Source of the DNA: Liolophura sinensis
Taxonomy: Eukaryota > Mollusca > Polyplacophora > Chitonida > Chitonidae
Assembly (NCBI RefSeq): GCF_032854445.1
Contig: NC_088301.1
Span: 58,850,512 to 58,914,511 of the forward strand
Length of the DNA stretch: 64,000 bases
Reading direction: 5' to 3'
Of this stretch, positions 29,196 to 48,089 are shown piece by piece (positions within the stretch are counted from its first letter, which is position 1; every line of letters starts with the position of its first letter). The translations under genes and the position numbers were made by a program. A model generated the notes under the pieces. That model had not been told where the DNA came from and did no database searches. It saw only the letters and a program-made list of their open reading frames with translations.

Positions 29196-29548
29196 TTACA
29201 CATAAGCCCCCACTGAAATATAGGGTTCCCTCCCGTTCATGTCATTAACATGTCGGGGAGTGTTTGTACTGGTGTAACCCTGGGCATTAATTGGGCCATT
29301 CGGCTCACAAGGGTTACCGAGATCAGGCCTAACTCGTTGTCTTGACAGGGATACGTGTCTGGTAGACTTGTCCTCGATATCGTCAGAGCCATTGTCCTCT
29401 CTGGACGGAGATCTGGAGTCTCCCATACTGAAACCCTGTGAGGAGGACGAAGACAATCCTTCGGCTTCAGACGACATTTTCGCGGAGCTGGTGGACCCCG
29501 TGGTAGACAGGCTTGGGTTTTCGATCTGAAGACCTGTCGGGTACGGAC
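29196..29548 (-). CDS. Cytoplasmic tail exon of the tandem-VFT protein
   Basis: A 117-codon exon rich in Ser, Thr, Asp and Asn (GSTSSAKMSSEAEGLSSSSS; SRSPSREDNGSDDIEDKS). No enzymatic domain is visible. It ends ISVGAYV, whose hydrophobic C-terminal Val could fit a PDZ ligand, though the -2 residue (Ala) is not typical. The stop is TAA within TGTGTAAGTTT, so GTAAGT could act as a donor to an unseen downstream exon. Confidence 0.65.
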
Positions 29549-32500
29549 CTGTAACTTGAAGTAAGCCTTCAGAACATTTAACATGCCCGAACACGCAAAA
29601 AATGTATATCCACCACCAGGTATTTCTCTTTATGGTTGATAAAAGTAAAAAAAACCATAACATTCCAAAAACAATATTACCAAATAAATGAAATTTTTAG
29701 TCCTATTTTCATGTAGATAATCAGCGGTTATAGGTACATAATTTTATCCATGGTCATTAGATGTATACCAATCAATATAAAGCTGGATAATCCCACCCTA
29801 TACATTTTTTACTTACTGGCTGATGGCTGTTCGAATTTTCCCTTGTCTGTTGTGCTGTCGCAGAGTCTGTATCTAGAACACCAGAGGAGATGAACTACCG
29901 AAATCACAAGAACTACCAGACAGTTCAGCGACGTGATGATAATTATGACACTTTTCCATTCTGTGGATTCTGCGGACTTTCTTGAATCTGATATGGAATC
30001 GTAACACATGCTGCAATGCGGACCCAAACAGGTGGTGTCAATGCTCGAAACCGGGGATCTATCCGCATCTCCCGAGTACAGCTTTATTCTTTTGAGATCC
30101 ATTCGAAGCCCATGTCTGTCAAATATTCCAACCTAACAAGAGAAAGGACGTCAGAAACACATTCGTGTGATAAATCTATATTAGAAGCGGTATATGCAGG
30201 GTTTATGTTTTAATCAGTTCATGATCGATCTGCATCAGGCTTCTTCGGAAGGTATTATTAACCATCATATTAAGGTGGTTCCACAAAATTCTTCACAGGC
30301 CTTTTATATTAGACCTTTTAACGTGAATCGATGCGGTCGCCGTGAGTTCAAATCCAGCTCATGCTGTCTTCCTATCCAGCTGTACGTGGGAAGGTCTCCC
30401 AGTAAGCTGAGGATGATCGTGGGTTTCTCTTGGGCTTTGACAAGTTTCCTCCTACCGTGATGCTGGTCGCCGTCGTATATGTAAAGTATTCTTGAGTACA
30501 GCCTTATACACCAACCCCATAAGTAAATAAAAAAACATGTGAATGGTAGTTAAAAAGATTGTTGGGTATAAAATTTTGGGTGTTTTTAAGTTAGCTGTTT
30601 TAAGTAAGTTAATGGAAAACAACAATACAAAACCATTTATGAATATCTGATACCCTGAGCGTGTAAACCAAAATATTTATTTATTTATTTATTTATTCAT
30701 TTGATTGGTGTTTTACGGCGTACTCAAGAATATTTCACTTATACGACGGCGGCCAGCATTTTAGTGGGAGAAAACGGGCAGAGCCAGGCAATAAGTCACC
30801 TTTATGTTTGGATGCGTAAATTTGACAAAGAATTTATTTTAAATAAATCTATATCCTGTTGGCGATCAAGAAAATATAGATTAAAGATAATACAAAAGGC
30901 TACAGCATCGAGATTAACAAAAAGATAAGCGACGAGAATGCGGCAGTTGGCAAATGCATGATGCCACGTAATCAGAGTGAAACCCAGTGTCTTATCAATA
31001 TACTCACCTCAACATAGTAGTAATTCCCGTCGTCGCCCCGATGCAGGTTGTGAATGCGATATCCAATGTCTCCATTTCCATCATCACGAAATGGTCGGAA
31101 ACGCACATTCTCGGCACTGAACAGTGTGGTGTTTCGAATATGCTCAGTCACTCGTTCAGGGAACAAGCGAAACTTATCACAGCCCACCAGTGGCCCGTCT
31201 GAGCACAGTTCGAAGTGGGCTGCTACTAACCCATTCACAACGGCCGCAATCGAGTTCATTGCGTGCACAATTCTTTGATCGTTAATCATTGACTCAACGG
31301 TTTTTTCGTCTATCCGAACTGAGAGATCACAATCCACGTCATGTTTTTTGTTGAACGACCACGGTAAATTGCATTTGAATTGATCTTGCCAAAATCTGCT
31401 GAACCATGGATTGATGTCTGTTTTGGACGGCGCTTTCATGAGCAGGTACTCCCGGAGCTTGTTGTTCTCTGCCATCGATGTGTCCACGGTGACTGTCAGA
31501 GACCCAGCTGCCTCAAGTTCCAGTCCATCGATAGGCTTCATATTCACGCCCCAGTCCTCACTGGCAACGAATGTGAAGTTGTGGATATTACTTGTCCTTA
31601 AGGTTTGTAACAGCCGACGAGCACTGTCACCCGTCCCGAAAAATACTACCGCTGTGGCTTTGTTAATGCCAAGAATTTTTATCACGTTTTGCAAATCTTT
31701 GTGCTCCGGAATTTCGTTAATTGCTATGGGATTTGCCACACAGACGCCTTCCTTTTCTGCAAAAATCTGTATTTTCTTCATCCCCGTTTTCCCATAAATG
31801 TTATTTGTGTATACGATGTTGATATATTTCCAGCCCATAGCTTTGATAACTTTCACCATGAGATCGGCCTGTACTTCGTCACTGGGGACCGTCCGGAGGA
31901 AGAAAGGGTATAGGAATCTGTCGTCCAGGTCAGGACTTGATGCTGCATAGGAGACCTGAGGCAAGTTGAGGCGACTGAAGCACTGAGCTTGGGGCAGAGC
32001 CACGCTGCTCGGTTCCGGTCCGATAACAGCAACGACTTTCGTACGGTTTATCATCTCTCCCGTGACTTCATCCACCAGTTCGACGTTTCCAGAGAGAAAA
32101 TCCGATATGATACTATTGCTCTTCAGCGGATTGTAACATTCATCAAATATAACCACACCCAAGGACATCCTTGGATGGACATTCATTTTTGCCTTTTCTT
32201 TGAACATGTACAGAAATGCTTCTACAGACGGTATTGTATTTGTGGTTGTTCGTATGGCGCCACAACCGAATGGATCGGTTTTGGAAGATTCGTGGATTGA
32301 GAAGAAAGCAACGATGAGATAGTCCCCGGGAACATATATAAAATGCTGGATCTTGTGACATTCTTTGCAGACCGTCAAGCAGGTTGACTTCATGAGGTTA
32401 GGAAAGGAGACCTCGATACCCCCGTGGCCCTTCTGGTGTATTTCGTTACGAGATAGTTCCATGCTGGTTTTTGAGTAAGAGCCCACCTAGTGTTTAAAAA

Positions 32501-35500
32501 AGGCGATTTATATATCGTCTGAGACAGATATACATTTACAGAGTTTCAGGCTGGATTGATGGTGATTCCAGCAAATTATGACAGGTTGTCCTCAACATGA
32601 TAATGGTTGACTGCCAAAAAGACCTGGTGAATTAAAATTTCTACCCTGAGATATTAATCATCATAAATACAAGAAACGTGAATATAAGTCTTCTTTCGCC
32701 TACGATAGATGTCCTGCACGGCGTTATATACTATGTTCAACATAGCGACGAACTTTGTTAAAAAGATGCTCTGCCCATAGTGGCTATGTATGTGCATATT
32801 TCTCATTGTACCCCTTGTCCATGATCGCGTGGTATCCATTAAAGTGCAGTGTAGGCTTTTAGCATTTCTAGCAATAGTTTGCATCTAAATAGCATTCCTC
32901 AGAGCAATCCCCTTTTACATTGTATTTGTTAAATAGCATTTCAAATCCACTTAAATAGCTGTTGACCCGAAGACTACGTTTATCTGCTTAGAATTTCAAA
33001 GTATTGTCTAAATAGATCCTAATTACAACAGCCAGTTAAAGTAATGCCTAAAACACAATATATTTGCTAATTCGTGATTTCAAAGTATTGTCTGAATAGA
33101 TGCTAACTATCACCGCCCGGATCTTGTTGTCCTTATAAGACAATATATTTGCTAATTAGCAATACGTAAGTATTGTCAATACTAGCAATAGATTGCATCT
33201 AAAGAGCATACCTCAGAGCAATCCCCTTTTACAATATATTTGCCAATTAATATTTTAAATCTACTTTAAATATCTGTTGACCAGAAGACTGTATTTATCT
33301 TCTTAGAGTTTCAAAGTGTTGTCTAAAAAGATCCTAACTACCACAGCCATGGGAAGTTATTCGTACAACACAACATATATTTGCTAATTAGCGATTTGAA
33401 AGTCTTGTCTAAAAAGAAGTTGGCTAGCTCAACCAGGGTAAGTACTCCCTACAACACAATATATTTGCTAATTAGCAATTTGAATGTACTTTTTAAATAG
33501 ATGCTAAGTATCACTGCCAGAGTCATGTTATTCTTACAACACAGTATATTTCGGTGGGGTCGGGAGCGGTGTGGGTCTATCGTGGCAGTCCTAAATGGCA
33601 AATACTATATATGCTTTGACCACAACTGCACAGATGGCTTCTGTCATAGTTCGCGTACGCATAGCGCTATTATAGCAGTCTTAAATAGCGAATATATTAC
33701 TTTCAGAAATCCCCAGAGATTGCCTAAATGTCGATTGGTTGAGAGAACAATATATGTGCCCCTGAACAAACTAACTATCAAAGAGGGCAGGTTGGCGGAT
33801 TTCCTGGAAGAGCAATATAATCCCTATATAACGCCACTATGATAGCGCCATGTAAAAGCTAACTATCGAGGAGGCCACATGCGGGGATTTGTTGAAGGAC
33901 AATATATGTTAGCTGTTTAAGGTTGCTATGGTAGTGCTATGTAAAAGCTAGCTATCAAAGACGCCAGCTGGCAGATTTTCTGGAAGAGCGATATATTAGC
34001 GTTGTGTATAGAACCGAACTATGAAATAGGCCGTCGGTACGGATGTGTTAAAAGGGCAATATATTGAGTATTTAGCTCGGCTATAATGTCGCTATGTAGC
34101 TAACTTTCAAAGAGGCAATGTCACTTTATTTTCTGGAAGAGCAATATATTCGTTATTGCTCTAATAGTGCAATGTAGAAGCTAACTAACTATCAAAGAGA
34201 CCCTCTTGCGGATTTGTTGAGAGGACAATATATTCACTATTTACCGCTGCTATGATAGCGCTATGTAGAAGCTAACTATCAAAGGGGCCAGCTATGTGCA
34301 GGACGATTGAGAACAATATATGGGCTATTTAGCGCGGCCAAATAGACCATATATTATCATTCCGCATAGGCCTCTCTTTGGTAGTTAGCTTCTACGTAGT
34401 GCTGTACGAGCGGCGCTAAACAGCGAATATATTGTCCTTTCAAGAAATCCCCACAGATGCCATCTATGATAGTTGGTTTCTACATGCAGCCCTAAATGGC
34501 AAACATATTGTCCTTTGACCAAAACTGCACAGATGGCTTCTTTCATAGTTCCCCTATACATAGCGTTATTATAGCAGCCCTAAATAGCGAAGATATTACA
34601 TTCAGAAAATCCCTAGAGATTGTCTCTTTCAGGGTTTGGTATTATATGTTTTTTTTCACAGCTGTACTAATTACGGCATATACTTTCCTGTCCTCAAAAC
34701 CTGTCCCTACATTGTGCAGAGACACATCAATAATGCTACTGTAGCGCTAATAACAACTACATAGCAGTAATCATTAGAACAAGAGAGGAAAAATAGCCAA
34801 ATATTTGTAAATTCTTGTCAGTTCAGTGCACGTATCTCGTGTATTGCGTGAATCTGTTTCCACAATCTCGTATATGGGAACAATATTCGAAGCATGCAGC
34901 ACATAGCATTGTAGAAACACCTATTTGCAATTCAGGGAACGTCACATGGCTTAATTTACATATTTACTTGCCTGATTGATGTATCAACCCTTTTATTCCT
35001 TTATTCAAGAAGATCTCCTTGTTTTGGGTGTTTTAAGCCTGCATTTTATTCTTTTATCAGCAAAATAAATTATTTCGTGAAATGTGTTAAATGAACCTAA
35101 ATGATTGATTTGGTATTATAGTTACGTGTTTATTAGGAATCAAGGACAAAAGCCCCGGCGAACAAAAGCCCCGCAGTCAGAAGCCTCACGGACAAAAACC
35201 ACGGCGGACAAAACCCCGACGAACAAAAGCCCGATCGTCTTAATTAACCGATAAAAGATATCCAACAGTCTATAACAAACATGATGTCAAATATTTGTTG
35301 ACGGGAATTCATGTAGGTTGATTTTGTTTTCCATCTAAAAATTTGTCAAAGTGTATTCTAGTTTGTCACTATGGTTCAACAGCTTTCCTCTCATAAGTGT
35401 TGTACGCGTAAGTTTTCAAAACAATATCGCCAGAATGACTGGTGTCTCTGATGTCTCTAATATTATCGTCGAACGCTTTCCGTCAAGCAAATATAAGTTT

Positions 35501-38500
35501 ATTCTACATAGTATCACTATACTTAATTTGTTTGGCTGAAAGTTTTCAGCATGGCATACATGTTATGGCATAGCATAGGGTTGTAGCTTAGTACGATTCA
35601 CAGTAACACGTCGGGGCTGCCGGTATGCATTTTGAGTAGGTTTACAGGCATCTTAAGTAATTTTATGTGTTCACTATAACAGATGTATTTTAAAATTTTT
35701 ATTATTTAGAAACTTAAACCAAATCATATTATAGTTCACAAGAAAGATATTATTTTTGAATACTCTTAAAAAGAATAAAAGAAAATAGTTTATTTTTTTT
35801 ATGTAACTGTGTATTTTTAATTTATTTTATAGGCATACGTGGATGTTTATGATAAATCAAACGAATCAGTGATCTTAACGTTTAATCGGAAGTATTCTGT
35901 AATAATTGCGGGAATTAAACTTTATGAATTATTGCCCGACATTGAGAAAAATGAATGTATGCTGCATGTTTTTGAACATCTACACTCGGGAAGATCGAAA
36001 CAAGCACGTTTCGTGTCTTTTGCTTTCTGAGGTTTCCATCACTGCTACAAGTATTTAGAATCAACCATTTTCTGTACAGGTGTTAGGCTATAGCATGTAA
36101 ATTATATTTCCGAGATAGGAACAAATGAACAATTGATCAATCTAAGAAGATTTGTGTTCTTAGAATAGGAATAAAAAAGTCTAACACAAGCCTTAATACA
36201 GCCACTGTTTCCAACTGTAGACTACTTTCGTTTTCAGACAAGCCTGGAATGGTGGTCGAGAGTTTAGAGATATATCTCTCTCCAATGTCGTCAAAAACCG
36301 TTAGAATATGTGGAGATTGAACGAGAAGAGTAAGAAGATGTTCTGTTCATTGCATACATGTATTGAAATCTGATATTTCACTTTAGGGAGAATGTTTCAA
36401 GTTTTCTTAAACAGGAAAACAACTTATGTTATTTTCCATATGCATTTAATACTGATCCAGTGGCTTATGTCCGCCTGTGTTTTTGTACGCGGGGTTTTTG
36501 TCCGCCGGGGCTTTTGTCCTTCCCGCGTATATACGAGTGCTTTGTGGAACGTACTGTTTCGAATTATGGAACCTTGATGCAAGGTGATCTTCCAATGTAT
36601 TACAACTTACGTGATGAAAAGAACCCTTCCAAAACAGGTTGATGTTGTATAGATGACTTTCGTCAGGGTGGATAATGTCTCCTTTGGCATCAAATCGTAC
36701 GCGCCGCTGAGAGAACTCGGGAGGATAACGAATGCGGTTCGTGGAGGAATAACTGAAGGAAATCCCCTTCACTTCGTCCAGGACAGGGTTGCCAGTGTGA
36801 AGTTTGTCACACACGCCAGCCATGGTTCCACAACGTTTGTGATGAGCCTTCTTCACAGCTGCTCCCAAAACATACACTGCATCAAGAGTGGCGCCAACGT
36901 AGTCTTGTTGGTGAAAGCTTTTGCAAGAATCTTGCTTACTGCAGTATCTGTCTGTGTAGGATTTGACCCACGGAACAGAGGAATTTCTTCCCAGTAGCTG
37001 GTTTCTCGCAAACTCTATGAACTCTTGTATAGGTGTATTTTCTGACGACATTGTCAAGATTCCATCAGACAAGCTTTCGCCTACAGTGACGGCCTCCATA
37101 TTAGTACCTACGCTGTCTGACATTATCCAGAGCAGGGACGCCAGAAATGGATAGCGGCCTTCGTGATGATGCGCCTCCTTCAAAATGAATTGTGCAGCTT
37201 CCCTTTGACCCATATACACCACACCCACACTCCCACTGTCGGCAGATTTTTTTAGTTCTCCGAACAGGTCTTGCACAGGGTTGAAATGTAGGTTGTTCAA
37301 TGAAATTGTAAAATTAGCACATATCTTTTCCTGATAGGCTAGGTGCAGTAATTCCGCAGCTCCTGACTCCCCGTAGTTATCACTGGAGTAAATCAATGAA
37401 AACCGTGTCCATCCTAGCTCCTTCATCAAGTTAATGATAGCCTTTAAAGCCAGAAAACAAGAGAATATATACGTCAGTTGTATACAGATTGGAAGTATAC
37501 AATGGTTGTAGTTATCTATTTTATCAAAACCATGTAATTTGCACTGGTGACATTTAAAAAGGCGTTCAAAATGCTATACTGGGCTGCTGCGTCAAAAGCA
37601 ACAGGATATTGCAAGTAACTGTATTTGTATTTGGAAAGTCGAGTCCATCTTTACAAACACAAGCATCCAAACCTATACATTCTTCTAAAATATAAAAGAT
37701 AGCACATCCTTTGTAGAGTAAAACCAGAGCAGTGACGACAGTGTGATATATATAGCAAATGGTAACCATAAAGAGCATCTATAAGACTGTAATAGTATCC
37801 TCGATTGCGATGCACATATATTGGACGGTTATACCTTGGTCTGATGTAGGTCTGATGTCACTGTCCGTAGCACATTGGGATACAAGGTGGCGTTACTGAA
37901 GGCAGGTAACGTGGCCAGAGTGATAATTGGCAGACCAGAACGGTTCAGAATTTCGGCTACAGCAGCTGTAGTGGAACTTCTACTCGGTCCTATCACACCT
38001 GCATTAAAAAATCATGCACTTTAAAGAAAAAATATCAAAAGTGAAAAATTCGTGATTTTCTGGCGTTGTAAAACAATATCAAAGGATATAGTAAAAAAAA
38101 TACTATATGCATGTGACCAATTACATGTGCATGGGTATATCGATTTAAATCAGATTTGTCTGGCTTTCTCCCACCATAATGCTGAAGTAGCGAATTAGTC
38201 TTAAGCACGGCGTAAAACACCATTCAAATAAAGACCGCTCATGCTGGCTTCCTCTCCGGTCGTACGTGGGAAAATCTTCCAGCAGCTTGCATGCGGACGG
38301 TCGTGAGTTTCCCCCGGCTCTACCCGGTTTCCTCCCACCATAATGCTGGCTGTCGTGGTACAAGTGAAATATCCTTGAGCACGACATAGTAAAACACCAA
38401 TCAGATATACAAACAATACCATGTATTTGACAAATAAGCTTATTTGGCATGGCAAATCATCTCAAAGTGAGAAACAACATGTAGGCCTATATATGCTCTC

Positions 38501-41500
38501 AGCATGAATGAAAGCCATATATCATTGACGTAAAATTTAATTGTTGTGCAACAAGAGGATACGCTGGACTCTGTAATAAACAAATCTTGACCAACATAAT
38601 TATATATCCATCGAAACAATAACGTTTGCTTTTCAGTGTTATTACTCCAACACATATTAACGCAGAGTAGAACGTTTTCAGTGAAAAAGACTACATCACT
38701 ACATAGCACTGAATTGAAGGTGTCGCTTTTGGATAAAATGAACTATAGGTACTTGCTATGAGTGTGATATTCTTGATGCTAAATACCACATGTTTTTAAT
38801 GACTGACGCCACACAGATGATTATCTTTAGACCGAAATGAATCACGACCTGGGGTTTGGAATTTACCCCAAAAACAAAATAACGATGTTCTTAATCCAAT
38901 TTTCAAGAAATGAATGCTTGGAATTAAAACGTTTACAACCTACCTGGTAACATATTTACAATTATATGATTTTATTATCATTCTTTGTTTTTCAGTTCAG
39001 ACTATATTTGGACTTTTAACTTATTTTTCGTTTCCAATGTGGAATAACACAGTGATCTGAAATGTATACATATCACTCAAAGTATCTATTTAAAATGAAG
39101 TAAACTTAAGAAAACAAACAAACATCGTACCTGCTGTAAAGGCCGGTGCTTCCGGACAGTCACTGATGTTATGTTTTGAAGTTCGGCCTAGAATATTATA
39201 TGCGTGTTGACTGGCGTAATATGGGTCGCCACAATCATTGAAGACTGTGAAACCTTCGAAAAATAAAAAACATTTTAAATAAAAACAACTGTGAACAGGA
39301 TATTATGCTTGGGGAATTATCATACATTTCAAGCATTTTTCTCTCATGAAGAAAAATATCAGACATTTGGAATTTTATATGGAAATTTATTTATTTATTT
39401 ATATATTTGATTGGTGTTTTACGCCGTACTCAAGAATCTTTCACTTATACGACGGAAGCCAGTATTATAGGGGGAGGAAACCGGACAGAGCCCGGGGGAA
39501 ACCCACGACCATCCGAAGGTTGCTGGCAGACCTTACCTTACCATTTCTTTTACCAACGACTCAAAACAGGACAATGTCTCAAATTATGTCAGATTTTCTG
39601 AGAATGTTTCCTTCAACTAGGCCTACAATTCTAGCCGCACTTCTCTTACAAGTTAATAAATCTCTGGTATCCATGTACTCATTTATCTCGTCTGTGTTGC
39701 CTTTTACATTATTACACTAAAAAATCAGAATATGTGTGTTACATTCTACAGAACAATCTGCTGCAGCAACAGCATACATTCTGGCATCACTCAGACAACA
39801 GGATTTCTGCTAAATTTGAAAGAATATTTTTATGAGTACTAATTCACTCATAAAAAGCATCATTATATACTGACTATACTGTATTTTATCTCCCATGTAG
39901 TTCTGTCTTTTTTCACATCGCCAGATCTGTTCTTCTTCTGCTCATACAACACAGTACATTTTTCAGACTGAGGGTTGTACAAGATCGGTTGATCTCAAAC
40001 AGTCGCGAAGACGGCTTTGCCAGAGATGCATTGAGAGAAGGGTGGCCTCTACGATATATATCCCTACTGAATCTGGAAATACGGTACTCAAATCGTGATG
40101 GCCTGAGGTATAGTTCAAGTGGTCATGTCAAAGTGACCTCGACGGCAGGTAAGGTTGTGTAACGACAGGCGAGGAAGCTACTCTGGTATGTACACATGCA
40201 CATATATCTAGGCTGAAGTTCATGTAAACGGTCAAAAACTAAGGCGGCCCGCATACGACATTTAAATATGTTAAGATTTGAAATGTTGCTTTTAGTTTTA
40301 CCTGACATGAGTGCAAACAGCATTTCACCAAGGTGAAAGCATTTTGTCACATCGGTGGATAGGTTTCCACCCAGGTGGTTCGACGAAGTCCAAAGGTGGC
40401 GGATAAGAACGTTGACTAGATTTGGCTTTCGACAACAGATCATTTCCGTTATCTTCGGTTTACAACCTCAGAAACCACGCTAGTTAGTTTGCACGTTAGT
40501 TTTTACATGTGTGGAAACTGTTTCAGCACGAGGAAAAACGGTTTCTCCCAAGCGAGAACTGTTTTCACCTGGGTGAAAGCTTATTCTCTCACTTTTCCCC
40601 TTAATTAAAAATATTTAAAAAAGCTACTATCCCCCTGGCGAAAACCAAAGAAAAATTACAAAATTTATCCAATTAAAACAATTTCGCCAAAAAAGAATAA
40701 AATAGTGGGTTAAAATCGGGACTAGAACCAAATGCAATGTATGGGTATCAAAGAAGAGATAGCGGTGTAATGTTATACTACAGCGTGCATCGCCATTTTT
40801 ATTATCCATGTGCATAGCATGAGATCAGATTCTTCGGTGTGTATTATCTGGGATTAATATAATAGATTAGTTGTTGTATTAGCCCTTGATATTATGCACA
40901 CCACAGAGCAGCAATACTTGTGAAAATCATTTACTGTGTACAGTGATGAAGATTCCAAGTTTGGTTACATGGTGATCATTTGGACTGTACCGCGGTATTA
41001 TTTATTTCAGAGCACTGATGACCAGCCATGTATATTTCTCCAGCCATGTCTCATAGTCCGCCGCATACAACAAACATGCAATTCACGGCATCGGAGATGA
41101 AAATCAGCTGTGTAATGGTTAGCTGGAGCCTTGAGACTCCAGACTTGAGTCCACTTTCCCTGTGGTTTTAAGCCGGGACGCATGTGACCTTTTCTGGTGA
41201 AATCGGCGGTCTGCTGTTTCCTCAACCGAAACATCACAAATTCTTCAGTGTGGCATTGAATACCAAATGAAAACAAGCGGCATGCGCCATGCAATATATA
41301 ACGTGGACGGCATCGCTCTGTGTGGAGTATGGAAGTTTGTTGGTGAAACCAACACTTTAAAAGGAGTATGGAAGTGTGGCCGAAAAGTGCAGCCTTTTAA
41401 ATCTCGACAATCAGTGAAACGTGAATTGTGACGAAGTGTGCCCGAAAATAACGTCTGTTTAAATCTGAGCAGTCGTTCAAAACTGCACAGCGAGGGATAT

Positions 41501-44075
41501 GGAAATGTGCGGAAAATTGCAGTGGTTGAAACCTCAACAGGAAGTAATGAGCGAAAAGCCGTTCAAATAAGTATCATTCCTCAATACTATAGTTCTGCTG
41601 AAGGGAATCAGAAAGCGTTCAGGTGAAAGTTGCGTTGAGAATACATGTGGGTAGCTGAGTGGAGTGAAACTGAAAGTTGTCCATGGAAAGCTGTTCAGAG
41701 GTCGGAAAAAATTGAACGCAAAACGCAAGTCCATACAAATGAAAGTGGGCAGTAATAGGCGTTCACAAAAATAACTAATTAAGAGCTGTCTTAGAACAAA
41801 TATTTGGACAACTTTACTCTCATACGTACATTCATATCCATGGAATGCACCATTGAGTGTTATCTTTAACGCATGATAAAGATATGTTCTTACATTATCA
41901 GACCTCTCAACTCTCACGCATTCGGCGTGATACTCACGCATTCGGCTTCAATCTCACGCTCTCACGCAGCTACTTTAAAATCTCACGCATTCTGAAGGTT
42001 TAGGGTAAAAAATAAAAAAAACACTGGTAATTGTTGGTTTGCTTATGATATTCAACTGACCAAAGTACGGGTCGTGTCTTCAGTCATCCGAGGGAATTTC
42101 GCATGTTTATTTTTAACCTCCCCAGAGTTGTCGTTCCTGCTTCACCTGAGAGTGGATTTGATGATATTGAATTCTTCGTTAAAAAATTTCCACACCATCT
42201 CCCCTCAACAACGAATGAGATCGAGAAGCTCCAAGAAGAGTTTGTGGAATATCAAATGCTGGAAAAAAGTCACATTCCAGGACAAATCTGGGACAGCGCC
42301 CGCGTCAAACCTACTGAAGATGATAATGACCAGGAACTGGACGAGACACAGGATGGATGTCATTTGGGGTCATCTTTCCTCTCTTAAATTAGTAGACGGC
42401 AGCTCTAGGTTTGGAAGGTTGAGTAAAGTGGCTAAATTGATACTTATCCTACCACATTCCAACGCTGGCGAGGAGAGGGTATTTTCAATGGTGAGAAAAA
42501 ACAAAACCGCTTTTCGAGGATCGCTGGGAGTAGAGGGCACGCTGTCCTCTTTGATGACCATCAAACTAGCGAACTGTCACCAATTTGAACCACCAAGTGA
42601 AGTCTTAACCAGCGCCAAGAAGGCCATTCGTGAATACAACTTGTTACACAAGAAAAAATAATCTTTTCAAATAATAAAAGAGCACTCACGAGTCACATTC
42701 TTGTAACCACTGGCAGTGTAATTGTTTTACCACTAGACCTACCTCCGATCGATGATTCATCGGGCGTCGCCACCTGATTATAAATCTGTGTGCCACGTCA
42801 CCTTATAAGGTTATAAACAGTCACAATGCCGTCTAGCTAGTGTAAATTGTTGCAGACTACTGGCTAATTACAAAGTGACTAATCTGATTATATTTTCATA
42901 AATATTTTACGAAGCCACTCCACGGTATTTAGATCACGTCATGCATTGTACATTATTTTCGGTTTGTTGTGTGTTTGGATTGTTTCCACAATTTGAATAA
43001 TTTCAGGGAAATACAGTTTCCAATCTGACAAATGGTGTTGGTTATTAGTATTGATTTTCCCCACAAAATCTGTATAGATTTGCATCAAAGCGCCTAAAAC
43101 GAGATCCAAAACGAAGTAGAATACGGAAAGTTTCCTAACAATTCCACATTGTAATAGGGCCTACAGTAAGTTCACTCTTGGACTTCCAGTTTATTGTCTT
43201 AAGGAGAGAATAATATCAAAAGCATTCCATATTTGCTGATATATATGATGGTTATTCTTATGTAAAAATAGAAGATATTGTAAAAACCGTAAGTTAACAT
43301 TGTCTAATGATTTGCAGTTTTATTCTCCGGAAATGAGCTAGAATGCATCTCCGGCAATCTAGAACCCCAGAGCTTCCAGGGGCCGCTGTCTAATAATTTG
43401 CAGTTTTATTCTCCGGAAATGAGCTAGAATGCATCTCCGGCAATCTAGAACCCCAGAACTGGGCCCCCTAATTGGCTGGGATAGTAACCCAATCTCACTC
43501 CTTGGGAACATTTTAGGTTGAGAGGTCTGCATTATGCTCTAGTTAGCTCCAGTCCTGCTTTACTGAATATGTCGTGTATGACAAACTTACTAGAAAGGGA
43601 CGTAACTACAGATATTCGTAGCAGGAATGTGAAAAACAAATGTGAATATGACCTAACTGATGTGCATGTTAAATGGTAGCTCTATAACGTAATCTAACAT
43701 AAGCAATATAAAAATACACACTTGAAACACCTATAAAACGCTATCCACAGTTTAGTAGAGTCATTGACTGGCTACATATTGCCTAGATTATGAATATGTT
43801 AACGTGATGATTTTGTCCTTACCGAAATTAACACCTGGGATGTACTTCTTCCCACTGCTGTCTACCGTGTTGAGCTTGAGAACGGCATACTTCACGGCTA
43901 GGACGTGTTGCAAAGTAGCAAGTGACACCTCTCCACATTCCCCAAAGCCAGTGCTTCGCCGCACACTTAACATCACAGCAAACATTACATTTCCAGGTTC
44001 CTCGTACACCTTCGTGTGACACTGTGTGTATACAACGTGTGCGATGCACAGAGCGACAAGCGATTTCAGCAACAT
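29196..44075 (-). CDS. Tandem venus-flytrap (mGluR-like) single-pass membrane protein
   Basis: Seven exons join in frame on the - strand: 44075-43823, 39253-39131, 37998-37835, 37441-36611, 32486-31008, 30132-29817, 29548-29196 (stop TAA 29198-29196), giving about 1172 residues. Order: signal peptide (MLLKSLVALCIAHVV), VFT1 (about 20-460), linker with CLTVCKEC (493-500), VFT2 (about 505-950), linker with CLGPHCSMC (985-993), one transmembrane helix (about 1011-1034), and a 138-residue Ser-rich tail. Both VFTs belong to the ANF-receptor/periplasmic-binding type-I fold and resemble metabotropic glutamate receptors (IGPSRSSTTAAV and IGPEPSSVAL; LRTVTSD and LRTVPSD; NYGESG and IYGKTG). No 7TM, kinase or cyclase domain follows. 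The last acceptor could also be used at 29554. The stop codon overlaps a GTAAGT, so a further 3' exon cannot be excluded. Ligand and signalling are unknown. Confidence 0.85.
29817..32486 (-). CDS. VFT2 half, cysteine linkers and transmembrane helix (exons 5-6)
   Basis: Exon 5 (32486-31008) is one uninterrupted 493-codon exon. It begins with VGSYSK and the first Cys linker, then GDYLIVAFFSIH, a strongly mGluR-like VFT (PQVSYAASSPDLDD, FLRTVPSDEVQAD, NPWFSRFWQDQFKC), and ends GNYYYVE. Exon 6 (30132-29817) restarts with VGIFDR, the second Cys linker and the helix (SVIIIITSLNCLVVLVISVV). Pocket positions against mGluR1: Ser165 kept, Thr188 to Ser, Asp208 kept, Tyr236 kept, Asp318 to Glu, Lys409 to Arg, all conservative. 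The GTG at 32484-32486 is the first codon after a splice acceptor, not a start. Confidence 0.85.
30325..30535 (+). repeat. SINE copy, family B
   Basis: GCGGTCGCCGTGAGTTCAAA, TACGTGGGAAGGTCTCCCAG, GATCGTGGGTTTCTC, GTATTCTTGAGTACAGCC and a GTAAATAAAAAAA tail. Lies in the intron between VFT exons 5 and 6. Confidence 0.85.
30676..30792 (-). repeat. SINE fragment, family B (reverse)
   Basis: TTATTTATTTATTTATTCAT, GATTGGTGTTTTACGGCGTA, CACTTATACGACGGCGGCCA, then GGGCAGAGCCAGGC. It lies opposite in orientation to the copy at 30325-30535, about 140 bases away. Confidence 0.9.
32890..34625. repeat. 85-90-bp satellite array with internal inversions (VFT gene intron)
   Basis: Left half: ACAATATATTTGCTAATTAG recurs about every 85 bases (33057, 33141, 33228, 33370, 33455, 33540), followed by ATTGTCTAAATAGATGCTAA-type sequence. 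Right half: CTAACTATCAAAGAGGCC with GCTATGATAGCGCTATGTAG recurs about every 88 bases (33771, 33859, 33948, 34100, 34185, 34272). Segments near 33560-33720 and 34370-34620 carry the same unit in reverse (AAATAGCGAATATATT, GATAGTTAGCTTCTAC), so the array is inverted at least twice. A separate block of the family lies at 48090-48325. Confidence 0.85.
35142..36521. mobile_element. ~1.38-kb DNA element with iteron-type inverted termini, unclassified
   Basis: The left end AAGGACAAAAGCCCCGGCGA and the reverse complement of the right end (ends 36521) share AAGGACAAAAGCCCCGGCG. Each end carries several tandem variants of a ~17-bp iteron, (G/A)ACAAAAGCCCCGNC: about five at 35142-35231 and four at 36468-36521. 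The interior is very AT-rich and encodes only short open frames (35351-35539, 35839-36030) without recognisable homology. No convincing target duplication was seen. Probably a non-autonomous transposon; it sits in the VFT1-VFT2 intron, 90 bases from exon 4. Confidence 0.75.
36611..44075 (-). CDS. VFT1 half (exons 1-4) of the tandem-VFT protein
   Basis: Exon 1 (44075-43823) encodes the signal peptide and the first strand/helix (MFAVMLSV, HVLAVKYAVLKLNTVDSSGK, YIPGVNFG). Exon 2 (39253-39131) has VFNDCGDPYYASQHAYNIL, exon 3 (37998-37835) VIGPSRSSTTAAVAEIL and LPIITLATLPAFS, and exon 4 (37441-36611) the rest of both lobes, ending DESHLYNINLFWKGSFHH. Against mGluR1, the amino-acid pocket positions read Ser165 kept, Thr188 kept, Asp208 kept (TSD), Tyr236 kept (NYGES), Asp318 kept (MSDS), and Lys409 replaced by Tyr. 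This alignment was made by eye. The first intron (39254-43822) contains a hAT element. Confidence 0.8.
38150..38232 (+). repeat. SINE fragment, family B
   Basis: TTTCTCCCACCATAATGCTG, TTAAGCACGGCGTAAAACAC and CATTCAAATAAA: 3' end of the family, directly followed by a second, longer copy in the same orientation. Confidence 0.8.
38236..38412 (+). repeat. SINE copy, family B
   Basis: GCTCATGCTGGCTTCCTCTC, CGTACGTGGGAAAATCTTCC, CGGTTTCCTCCCACCATAAT, then AACACCAATCAGATATACAA. Lies in the intron between VFT exons 2 and 3. Confidence 0.85.
39386..39537 (-). repeat. SINE copy, family B (reverse)
   Basis: TTTATTTATATATTTGATTG, GTGTTTTACGCCGTACTCAA, CCCGGGGGAAACCCACGACC, GGTTGCTGGCAGACC. Lies in the first VFT gene intron, 133 bases upstream of exon 2. 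Confidence 0.9.
42103..42661 (+). pseudogene. hAT transposase C-terminal remnant (frameshifted)
   Basis: The second half encodes the hAT dimerisation region: RLSKVAKLILILPHSNAGEE, then RVFSMVRKNKTAFR, and SLMTIKLAN, ending LLHKKK and TAA (42659-42661). Upstream coding similarity (FDDIEFFVKKFPHHLPS, EEFVEYQML) lies in another frame, so a frameshift falls near 42350. N-terminal zinc finger and RNase H parts are missing. Confidence 0.8.
43301..43460 (+). repeat. 86-bp two-copy tandem duplication inside the hAT element
   Basis: TGTCTAATGATTTGCAGTTT at 43301 and TGTCTAATAATTTGCAGTTT at 43387 start two units. Both continue through CTCCGGAAATGAGCTAGAAT and GGCAATCTAGAACCCCAGA with almost no differences. 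Confidence 0.9.
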
Positions 44076-44637
44076 GGTTCCATTGTCACTTCAGCTTTAA
44101 ATTTGATTTAGATTTTAGACATGTTGTTTCTGAGTTGCAAAAGTCACTGCCCCTCAGGAGTGAGTCGGAAGTAACCCTAGTAGATATTAAAGGTGCTTAG
44201 ACGTCATGCTTCGTCGGACTCACAAGCCTAGGAGCACATATTAACCATACAGTCTACACCTTACCTATGGCCGACAGGTCTCTCTTCAAAAACTATACCT
44301 ACCAAGTATGCGGGGAACAGATTTATTCTCATAGGCAATCACATTTCTACTGTTATTTTTACATTATAAATTATCCTTACTTGAACAGCAATATACGAAT
44401 GGGTCCTGTATATGGCGTGCACATATTTCGCCCTGTAGAATTTATTAGATCATGTGTGTTGTGTAACTGTTTCAATCAACGTGAACAACTTATTGGTGTA
44501 AAAAACTAGTGTGTAAAGGTTTTTACATCAAACGCCTTCACTGTAAATTTCTAAAGTTTTGAACATAGCTCTCTCGTAAGTAAATATGGACAGGGCATCC
44601 AGAATCTCTGGCGCTCTGCTTCTTGATTGTATTGACC

Positions 44638-45335: not shown

Positions 45336-45534
45336 TCTGTTAAACGTCGTATTGGAAATGGTCTTGTGATTATTGACCAGAACGTCTATTTTGTTTGATG
45401 CCTGTATGGAATAATAATGTCTTTTTTGAACTGTGTCTCCACTGTCACAGACATCTACACCTTAGGCTCCCAATACTACAGACACCCACACCCATTGCCC
45501 CAACATTAAAGACGTACACACCTGTTCTCCAAGA

Positions 45535-47510
45535 TTACACAGGCACTCACACCTGTGTCTCCAAGATTATACAGGCACCCAAACCTGTGTCTCCAAGATT
45601 ATACAGGCACCCAAACCTGTGTCTCCATGATTATACAGGCACCCACACCTGTGTCTCCAAGATTACAGGCATCCACACCTGTGTCTCCAAGATTATACAG
45701 GCACCCACACCTGTGTCTCCAAGATTATACAGGCACCCACACCTGTGTTTCCACGATTATACCGGCATCCACACCTGTGTCTCCAAGATTATACAGGCAC
45801 CCACACCTGTGTCTCCAAGATTATACAGGCACAAACACCTGTGTCTCCACGATTATACAGGCATCCACACCTGTGTCTCCAAGATTATACCGGCACCCAA
45901 ACCGGTGTCTCCAAGATTATACAGGCACTCACACCTGTGTCTCCAAGATTATACAGGCATCCACACCTGTGTCTCCATGATTATACAGGCACCCAAACCT
46001 GTGTGTCCAAGATTATACAGGCACCCACACCTGTGTCTCCAAGATTATACAGGCACAAACACCTGTGTCTCCAAGATTATACAGGCACCCAAACCTGTGT
46101 CTCCAAGATTATACAGGCACCCAAACCTGTGTCTCCAAGATTATACAGGCACTCACACCTGTGTCTCCAAGATTATACAGGCACCCACACCTGTGTCTCC
46201 AAGATTATACAGGCACCCACACCTGTGTTTCCAAGATTATACAGGCATCCACACCTGTGTCTCCAAGATTATACAGGCACCCACACCTGAGTCTCCAAGA
46301 TTATACAGGCACCCAAACCTGTGTCTCCATGATTATACAGGCACCCAAACCTGTGTCTGCAAGATTATACAGGCACCCACACCTGTGTCTCCAAGATTAT
46401 ACAGGCACCCAAACCCGTGTCTCCAAGATTATACAGGCTTCCACACCTGTGTCTCCAAGATTATACCGGCACCCAAACCTGTGTCTCCATGATTATACAG
46501 GCACTCACACCTGTGTCTCCAAGATTATACAGGCACCCACACCTGTGTCTCCAAGATTATACAGGCACTCACACCTGTGTCTCCAAGATTATACAGGCAC
46601 CCACACCTGTGTGTCCAAGATTATACAGGCACTCACACCTGTGTCTCCACGATTATACAGGCACTCACACCTGTGTCTTCAAGATTATACAGGCACCCAA
46701 ACCTGTGTGTCCAAGATTATACAGGCACCCACACCTGTGTCTCCAAGATTATACAGGCACCCACACCTGTGTCTCCAAGATTACAGGCATCCACACCTGT
46801 GTCTCCAAGATTATACAGGCACCCACACCTGAGTCTCCAAGATTATACAGGCACCCACACCTGTGTCTCCACGATTATACCGGCATCCACACCTGTGTGT
46901 CCAAGATTATACAGGCACTCACACCTGTGTCTCCAAGATTACACAGGCACTCACACCTGTGTCTTCAAGATTATACAGGCACCCAAACCTGTGTGTCCAA
47001 GATTATACAGGCACCCACACCTGTGTCTCCAAGATTATACAGGCACCCACACCTGTGTCTCCAAGATTACAGGCATCCACACCTGTGTCTCCAAGGTTAT
47101 ACAGGCACCCACACCTGAGTCTCCAAGATTATACAGGCACCCACACCTGTGTCTCCACGATTATACCGGCATCCACACCTGTGTCTCCAAGATTATACAG
47201 GCACCCAAACCTGTGTCTCCAAGATTATACAGGCACTCACATCTGTGTCTCCAAGATTATACAGGCACCCACACCTGTGTCTCCACGATTATACAGGCAC
47301 CCACACCCGTGTCTCCAAGATTATACAGGCACCCACACCTGTGTCTCCATGATTATACAGGCACCCAAACCTGTGTATCCAAGATTATACAGGCACCCAC
47401 ACCTGTGTCTCCAAGATTATACAGGCACCCACACCTGTGTCTCCAAGATTATACAGGCACCCACACCCGTGTCTCCAATATTATACAGGCACCCACACCT
47501 TAGACTCCAA
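45535..47510 (+). repeat. 32-bp minisatellite, about 62 copies
   Basis: The unit is CTCCAAGATTATACAGGCAC followed by CCACACCTGTGT (32 bases). Most variation is CCCAC/CCAAA/TCAC/TCCAC after GGCA. ACAGG and CCTGT within each unit are inverted repeats that could form a short hairpin. Rare 30-base units lack TA (GATTACAGG, near 45661, 46779, 47065); the last two mark a 286-bp higher-order duplication (nine units) at about 46577-46862 and 46863-47148. None of the three + frames contains a stop, so long open frames (up to 365 codons, repeating every 32 residues) arise by chance. Not considered a gene. Confidence 0.95.
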
Positions 47511-48089
47511 GATTATAGACACCCACACCTCTGGCTCCAGTGTTACAGACAAGCGCACCAACGGCACGAACATGAGCATCAGTGGCTTTAACGTTATAGC
47601 ACACTTTCATGCTATAAATATATACATGAATTTCACAATTACCCTTTGTCGGTAAAAATATACACTACGAAAAGCTACATACATAAAGCCTATGACGTAG
47701 ACTAAGTTAAAACTTATAGTTTTAATGACCTCAACACTCGCAAGTAAAACACAAAATTCATGGAGAGTGTGCATTTCTAGTACATGGATGGATGTATCTG
47801 ACCAGTAGGATTGGGTAACAGGCCTACCTAAATGTAGAGAACGCCCATAAGGGAAAACTTCCACTGGAGAACAAAGCGTGGAGCACCTGTCAACTTCTTT
47901 CAGTCAAAATAGGTAAATATGATTTAAGTGACCATCACTGGTGAATTTAGTTTTTAAACATGAAGACCTCCTTTTATCTCAATACGTGGTTATTCATCGT
48001 TTCTCTTTGACTTTCAGTGAATAGGACACACATGTGCGGTGCATAGTGTTAGATATATAGGCATCGAAAAAGACATTCGTATTCGCGCC

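Follow-up and report, generated by a model that had tools for sequence, protein, structure and literature searches.

A chiton gene for a putative single-helix receptor with two venus flytrap domains, and its multi-flytrap relatives in the same genome

In the usual picture of class C receptors, each chain has one venus flytrap domain (VFT) and signals as part of a pair. What, then, could be the role of a gene that places two such domains on one chain, followed by a single membrane helix? The question is raised by a locus of the chiton Liolophura sinensis, found in a stretch of 64,000 nucleotides (hereafter the window; C7:58850512-58914511 of the 609 Mb genome, where C7 is contig NC_088301.1). 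Taken as a whole, the following answer appears fairly probable to us: the gene product is a type I membrane protein, consisting of signal peptide, VFT1, three-cysteine linker, VFT2, three-cysteine linker, helix and tail; the gene is one of a family of such genes, and the flytraps of its product bind amino acids. Most likely the protein would serve as co-receptor or decoy, binding ligand as part of a tandem-VFT class C family but giving no G-protein output itself.

The gene lies on the minus strand of the window, from 44075 to 29196. The spliced model has seven exons and encodes 1172 amino acids, all junctions being GT-AG, in phase and without internal stops. The frame-consistent seven-exon model of the first-pass annotation, which was made from the letters alone, is thereby confirmed, with the signal peptide assigned by eye. 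The exons, in window positions, are:

43823..44075, minus strand: exon 1, with the start codon at 44075, the signal peptide (by eye) and the N-terminal part of VFT1; donor phase 1
39131..39253, minus strand: exon 2, VFT1; a relative was located at locus C7a only
37835..37998, minus strand: exon 3, VFT1; holds the equivalents of Ser165, Thr188 and Asp208
36611..37441, minus strand: exon 4, the remainder of VFT1; phase 0-0
31008..32486, minus strand: exon 5, the first three-cysteine linker and the entire VFT2; symmetric, phase 0-0
29817..30132, minus strand: exon 6, the second three-cysteine linker, then the only transmembrane helix (approximately residues 1012-1034)
29196..29548, minus strand: exon 7, the serine-rich tail, with the stop codon at 29198-29196; acceptor position uncertain

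The model is least secure at the beginning of exon 7. Upstream of it the frame is open to 29696, and the tail is therefore possibly longer by some tens of residues.

Domain searches recovered the architecture that had first been described, namely two VFTs, two cysteine linkers, one helix and a serine-rich tail. The Pfam family ANF_receptor matches two stretches of the chain (E 4e-83 over the whole chain). The only other families listed up to E = 1 were Peripla_BP_6, which belongs to the same superfamily and is above its cut-off, and TMEM154, which lies over the helix and stays below its cut-off (11.6 bits against 30.3). Searched up to the same E value, the chain gave no Pfam match to NCD3G, 7tm_3, kinase or cyclase. 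Each linker carries three cysteines (493/497/500 and 985/990/993), the mean hydropathy exceeds 1.6 only in segments starting at residues 1008-1022, and the tail, which starts at residue 1036, comprises 137 residues, including 26 Ser and 10 Thr. By sequence, VFT2 matches the metabotropic glutamate receptor (mGluR) mGluR5 at E 3.9e-53, and VFT1 matches mGluR7 at E 1.7e-22. Among solved structures, the best 60 of 90 matches for VFT1 and the best 60 of 109 for VFT2 were all mGluR, taste or calcium-sensing receptors, and included no natriuretic peptide receptors.

The protein does not fit any of three known receptor types. It shares the mGluR-type VFT with class C G-protein-coupled receptors (GPCRs) and has neither their 7tm_3 domain nor the nine-cysteine domain (NCD3G), which is not universal among class C receptors. 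Venus kinase receptors combine a single VFT with an intracellular tyrosine kinase, whereas here there are two VFTs and no kinase family. A natriuretic clearance receptor should have a VFT nearest to natriuretic peptide receptors, which was not the case among the best 60 structure matches.

The surroundings of the gene did not supply an effector either. The nearest 7tm_3 match listed on C7 is at 57.676 Mb, approximately 1.17 Mb away, in an exon-by-exon search that weak matches may escape. On the minus strand of the window, neither a kinase HRD nor a cyclase pattern occurs; the one DFG-like pattern lies in a stop-containing frame and is a chance occurrence. When seven-transmembrane (7TM) exons, in a query set that included one misframed query (7D), were compared with this strand by tblastn, two matches at E 0.3-0.4 were found, one of them to the single helix of the gene itself. 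The initial claim that no 7TM or enzyme domain is present is supported by these searches, and since no 7TM, kinase or cyclase was found, the chain is without any known VFT output.

The arrangement is not unique to the window. The order VFT1, VFT2, linker and helix was found at all five loci examined, namely the window, C7:41.60, C7:53.45, C3:12.43 and C4:10.58 Mb, and no 7tm_3 match was listed near any of them. Receptor genes with two VFTs and a single helix thus number five or more in the genome of Liolophura sinensis. The count comes from 28 examined places among the 38 matched by the window VFT2, and from a minority of the 103 places matched by ANF_receptor. The four further loci are distributed over three contigs (C7, with the loci called C7a and C7b, C3 and C4), and their exons 1 and 2 were located only at some. 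Their VFT2s are 39, 37, 36 and 29% identical to that of the window.

We define the family by the order VFT, linker, VFT, linker, helix and tail, together with common intron phases; the five genes share the order and, for the exons located, nearly all the phases. All five loci have a phase 1 intron ahead of exon 3, a phase 0-0 exon 5 and a phase 0 acceptor of exon 6; the donor of exon 1 is in phase 1 at the window, C7b and C4. The donor of exon 6 is in phase 1 at four of the five, the other being C4, which has phase 2 and an extra exon. A single helix follows VFT2 at every locus, and at C4 it is in this extra exon, spliced in frame. Over pairs of VFT1 exon 4 and VFT2 exon 5, the proportion of synonymous differences was 0.73-0.89 and that of nonsynonymous differences 0.30-0.56, as expected of proteins under selective constraint; these proportions are reported instead of dN/dS because most synonymous distances were saturated.

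Do both flytraps belong to one gene? The model was taken from genomic sequence alone, and the intron between VFT1 and VFT2 is 4.1 kb long in the window, so one might suspect either two separate genes, as the first-pass annotation had considered, or unrecognised exons that bring in a 7TM or enzyme domain. We regard both as very improbable. The same domain order is found at five loci, and the corresponding introns of C7b and C4 are much shorter, at about 0.5 kb. Furthermore, the VFT2 exon begins within the linker, directly after a phase 0 acceptor and without a signal peptide, and an in-frame stop follows the tail. The effector searches above, with no 7tm_3 listed within 1.17 Mb, no HRD or cyclase pattern and 7TM queries reaching only E 0.3-0.4, also speak against missing exons. 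In a tree of 31 VFT rows, in which VFT1 was represented without its N-terminal part and from which two divergent VFT rows of C7:57.68 were excluded, the four closest members (W denotes the window) branch as (C7b,(W,(C7a,C3))) for VFT1, with supports of 91/95 and 94/91. The same order was obtained for VFT2, with supports of 100/98 and 100/99. Such matching branching is expected if both domains are in one gene. Therefore, given the five loci, the short introns, the missing VFT2 signal peptide and the matching branching, separate genes are unlikely.

What the flytraps may bind is indicated by their pocket residues. According to PMC2680970, mGlu1 uses five residues to recognise the amino-acid moiety of its ligand, namely Ser165, Thr188, Asp208, Tyr236 and Asp318. 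Equivalents of Ser165, Asp208 and Tyr236 are invariant in all ten VFTs of the five two-VFT genes, position 188 is T or S in all ten, and position 318 is D or E in nine. The motif is S, T, D, Y, D in the window VFT1 and S, S, D, Y, E in VFT2, the latter with two conservative changes. Among the 277 columns filled in all ten VFTs, ten show no variation, and the pocket accounts for three of them (hypergeometric p 3e-4, treating columns as independent); the enrichment is weaker for the domains taken singly (p 0.003 for VFT1, p 0.016 for VFT2). These residues suggest that both window VFTs probably bind an alpha-amino acid or a close analogue. The amino-acid sensor envisaged at first pass is likely in this respect, as the recognition residues are kept in both VFTs.

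The same annotation also proposed that the two VFTs could form a built-in pseudo-heterodimer; in such a pair, the two lobes 1 of a single chain would meet as in an mGluR dimer. The stretch of 53 residues (458-510) that separates exon 4 from the first strand of VFT2 would be long enough to span a VFT, and both sites keep their recognition residues. The surface for such pairing, however, is altered in both domains. At positions 177 and 178, which we take to belong to the dimer helix of mGluR1, Leu177 is replaced by R, G, Q or A in VFT1 and by R, H or Q in VFT2, and Phe178 by S, T or E in VFT1 and by L, I or T in VFT2. In addition, a glycosylation sequon at Asn144 (NRS) of the window VFT1 aligns to the dimer helix, although a sequon may go unused and the other four genes, judged by eye, have none at this position. 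A structure prediction of the VFT2 exon alone, with window exon 4 as the sole other row, gave a mean predicted local distance difference test score (pLDDT) of 34.8, too low to be of use. The residues at the proposed interface speak against the intramolecular pair, which appears improbable.

With no known output of its own, the two-VFT protein would bind its ligand at the cell surface. It may then pair with a VFT-bearing 7TM receptor, changing the response or the surface level of the latter, or alternatively it may remove the ligand as a decoy. Two precedents favour such a role. SmGBP is a truncated mGluR that is able to bind glutamate and that, in the worm, is found enriched in membranes (PMC3206071). 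The variant mGlu3-delta4 interacts with mGlu3 and reduces its ligand binding and membrane level (PMC5714154).

Alternatively, the protein could signal by itself: VFT closure would rearrange dimers of the single-helix chains, and the tail, bearing Ser and Tyr, would recruit adaptors or kinases. The tails are long, with 137 residues in the window and 138 (C7b), 232 (C7a) and 155 amino acids (C3) in candidate tail exons that each end in a stop. Tyrosine motifs were seen by eye in three of them, EPYISV in the window, DPLYHEI in C7b and NTYVNM in C7a. Nevertheless, no Pfam family reaches its cut-off in these four tails. The window tail is without any family to E 0.1, and the sole weak match is SACK1 in C7a (14.3 bits against 21.4); the C4 tail, whose end was not reached in the model, was outside these tests. 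As the C3 tail has no such motif by eye, a tyrosine motif common to the tails was rejected. Signalling by the chain itself therefore appears unlikely to us.

Several observations pull against the explanation that we favour, an amino-acid-binding two-VFT family with a co-receptor or decoy role. The VFT2 of C3 lacks an acidic residue at 318. The position of Lys409, which in mGluR1 contacts the glutamate side chain, is basic in only six of the ten VFTs, so the ligand need not be glutamate. The test for pocket enrichment takes columns as independent. In the best tree, with VFT1 rows lacking the N-terminal part, the VFT1s of the five genes do not fall into a single group, C4_1 being a long branch; their VFT2s group at 73/84 only, and the tree gives VFT2 no firm position relative to the VFTs that follow the first one in the five-VFT loci described below. 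After VFT1, C7b offers only a weak donor candidate. The tails are long and not obviously alignable, leaving room for signalling of their own. Expressed in HEK cells, SmGBP was soluble (PMC3206071).

The same genome holds relatives beyond those first described, in which five VFTs precede a class C 7TM domain. At C10:24523000-24540500, C10:24574500-24591500 and C10:24604500-24624000, five ANF_receptor exons, each above the Pfam cut-off, are followed by a 7tm_3 exon. Phase 0 acceptors, mostly with the motif [VI][GA]x[YWF], and phase 0 donors fit most neighbouring exons. The linker of the fourth VFT is a separate exon at C10A and C10C; at C10B no linker exon was recognised for the fourth VFT, and no donor passed the test after the second. 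Each of these loci is likely one gene. Their recognition motif is complete in only one of the 15 VFTs; the three first VFTs are unreadable at 208, but fail at other positions of the motif.

A relationship with the two-VFT genes is indicated by the tree, in which their VFT1s and the first VFTs of the five-VFT loci fall together with a support of 98/98. Furthermore, a phase 1 intron precedes exon 3 in each of the seven paralogues inspected, a set that includes three five-VFT loci, whereas in two mGluR-like genes (labelled by eye) the region around this boundary is inside a single exon. Because the first VFTs of the two groups are related, tandem VFTs probably arose before the two-VFT and five-VFT genes separated; the alternative is that the other VFTs were gained later and separately. 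Most VFTs after the first are a single phase 0-0 exon, whose duplication would preserve the frame, and this is a likely way for the array to have grown. A descent of the single helix from the first transmembrane helix (TM1) of a 7TM exon was also considered and left open: the match to C10C TM1 scored 50 (p 0.007, 300 shuffles), with the next best of 20 comparisons at p 0.04, five of the 20 using a misframed query and the p values uncorrected for their number.

Other loci extend the range. C7:57676000-57689700 is a probable 7TM receptor with three divergent VFTs, of which the third alone passes the Pfam cut-off, and the loci at C10:24.64, 4.01 and 4.70 Mb apparently have one VFT and a 7TM domain. 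VFT number thus appears to vary within one genome between one, two, perhaps three and five. At C10:24557667-24565426, VFT and 7tm_3 matches, several with internal stops, could reflect the decay of one gene of the multi-VFT cluster.

Tentatively, we see in these genes an undescribed branch of class C, in which a symmetric exon was duplicated and the ligand module thereby multiplied within a single chain. It would comprise receptors with five VFTs and a 7TM domain, and chains with two VFTs, two intact sites and a helix, which would act as non-G-protein co-receptors or decoys for the multi-VFT GPCRs. If true, a single receptor complex could sense several amino acids simultaneously. The five-VFT loci are possibly more remarkable than the window gene itself.

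Around the window gene, three further features were observed. An out-of-frame ATG is located 8 bases upstream of the start codon (44066-44083, minus strand), and its five-codon frame overlaps the start. A 32-base tandem repeat of 63.5 copies (45517-47539), with long stretches open in all three plus-strand frames, lies some 1.4 kb before the start codon. Intron 1 holds a C-terminal fragment of a hAT transposase (41996-42661, plus strand; Dimer_Tnp_hAT, 25.3 bits, cut-off 21.4).

Is the arrangement new? Among the titles and abstract openings of the open-licence literature listed, we found no animal receptor with tandem VFTs. The word "tandem" is absent from the accessible parts of three GPCR surveys (PMC12716839, PMC3251606 and PMC4302439), the last of which makes no mention of ANF domains there. 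The new sequences of PMC3251606 are reported with N-termini of up to 1667 residues, so long forms exist. That the two-VFT, single-helix and the five-VFT, 7TM arrangement is undescribed in the open-licence literature is therefore a weak claim. Outside animals, tandem VFTs occur in the bacterial sensor kinases BvgS and EvgS, according to literature matches. The two-VFT, one-helix family and its five-VFT relatives are natural constructs for asking how many flytraps must close, whether VFTs are able to work in series, and whether a chain without a 7TM domain tunes a GPCR. The phase 0-0 VFT exon suggests a simple genomic route by which VFT arrays might grow.

Compared with mGluRs and other class C GPCRs, the window protein is alike in VFT sequence (VFT2 to mGluR5, E 3.9e-53), in the five-residue motif and in the cysteine-bearing linker after the VFT. 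It differs in having two VFTs instead of one, three-cysteine linkers without NCD3G, and one helix instead of seven. The natriuretic peptide clearance receptor also combines a VFT with one helix and no enzyme, but has one VFT, a short tail and a peptide ligand. SmGBP (PMC3206071) shares an mGluR-like VFT without a 7TM domain and is enriched in worm membranes, yet it has one VFT and no cysteine-rich linker, 7TM or intracellular domain, and its only possible helix is N-terminal. Venus kinase receptors (PMC3703292 and PMC2680970) resemble the window protein by a VFT on a single helix and by amino-acid recognition, and are distinguished by their one VFT and intracellular tyrosine kinase. With mGlu3-delta4 (PMC5714154) it has in common a shortened class C chain at the membrane; that variant, however, is a splice product of a one-VFT gene, whereas here a dedicated family of two-VFT genes exists. 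Within the genome itself, the five-VFT 7TM loci (C10:24.52-24.62 Mb) share the first VFT with its phase 1 intron and the linkers of VGxY and C-C-C type, and they differ by five VFT exons, a class C 7TM exon and a full motif in only one of 15 VFTs.

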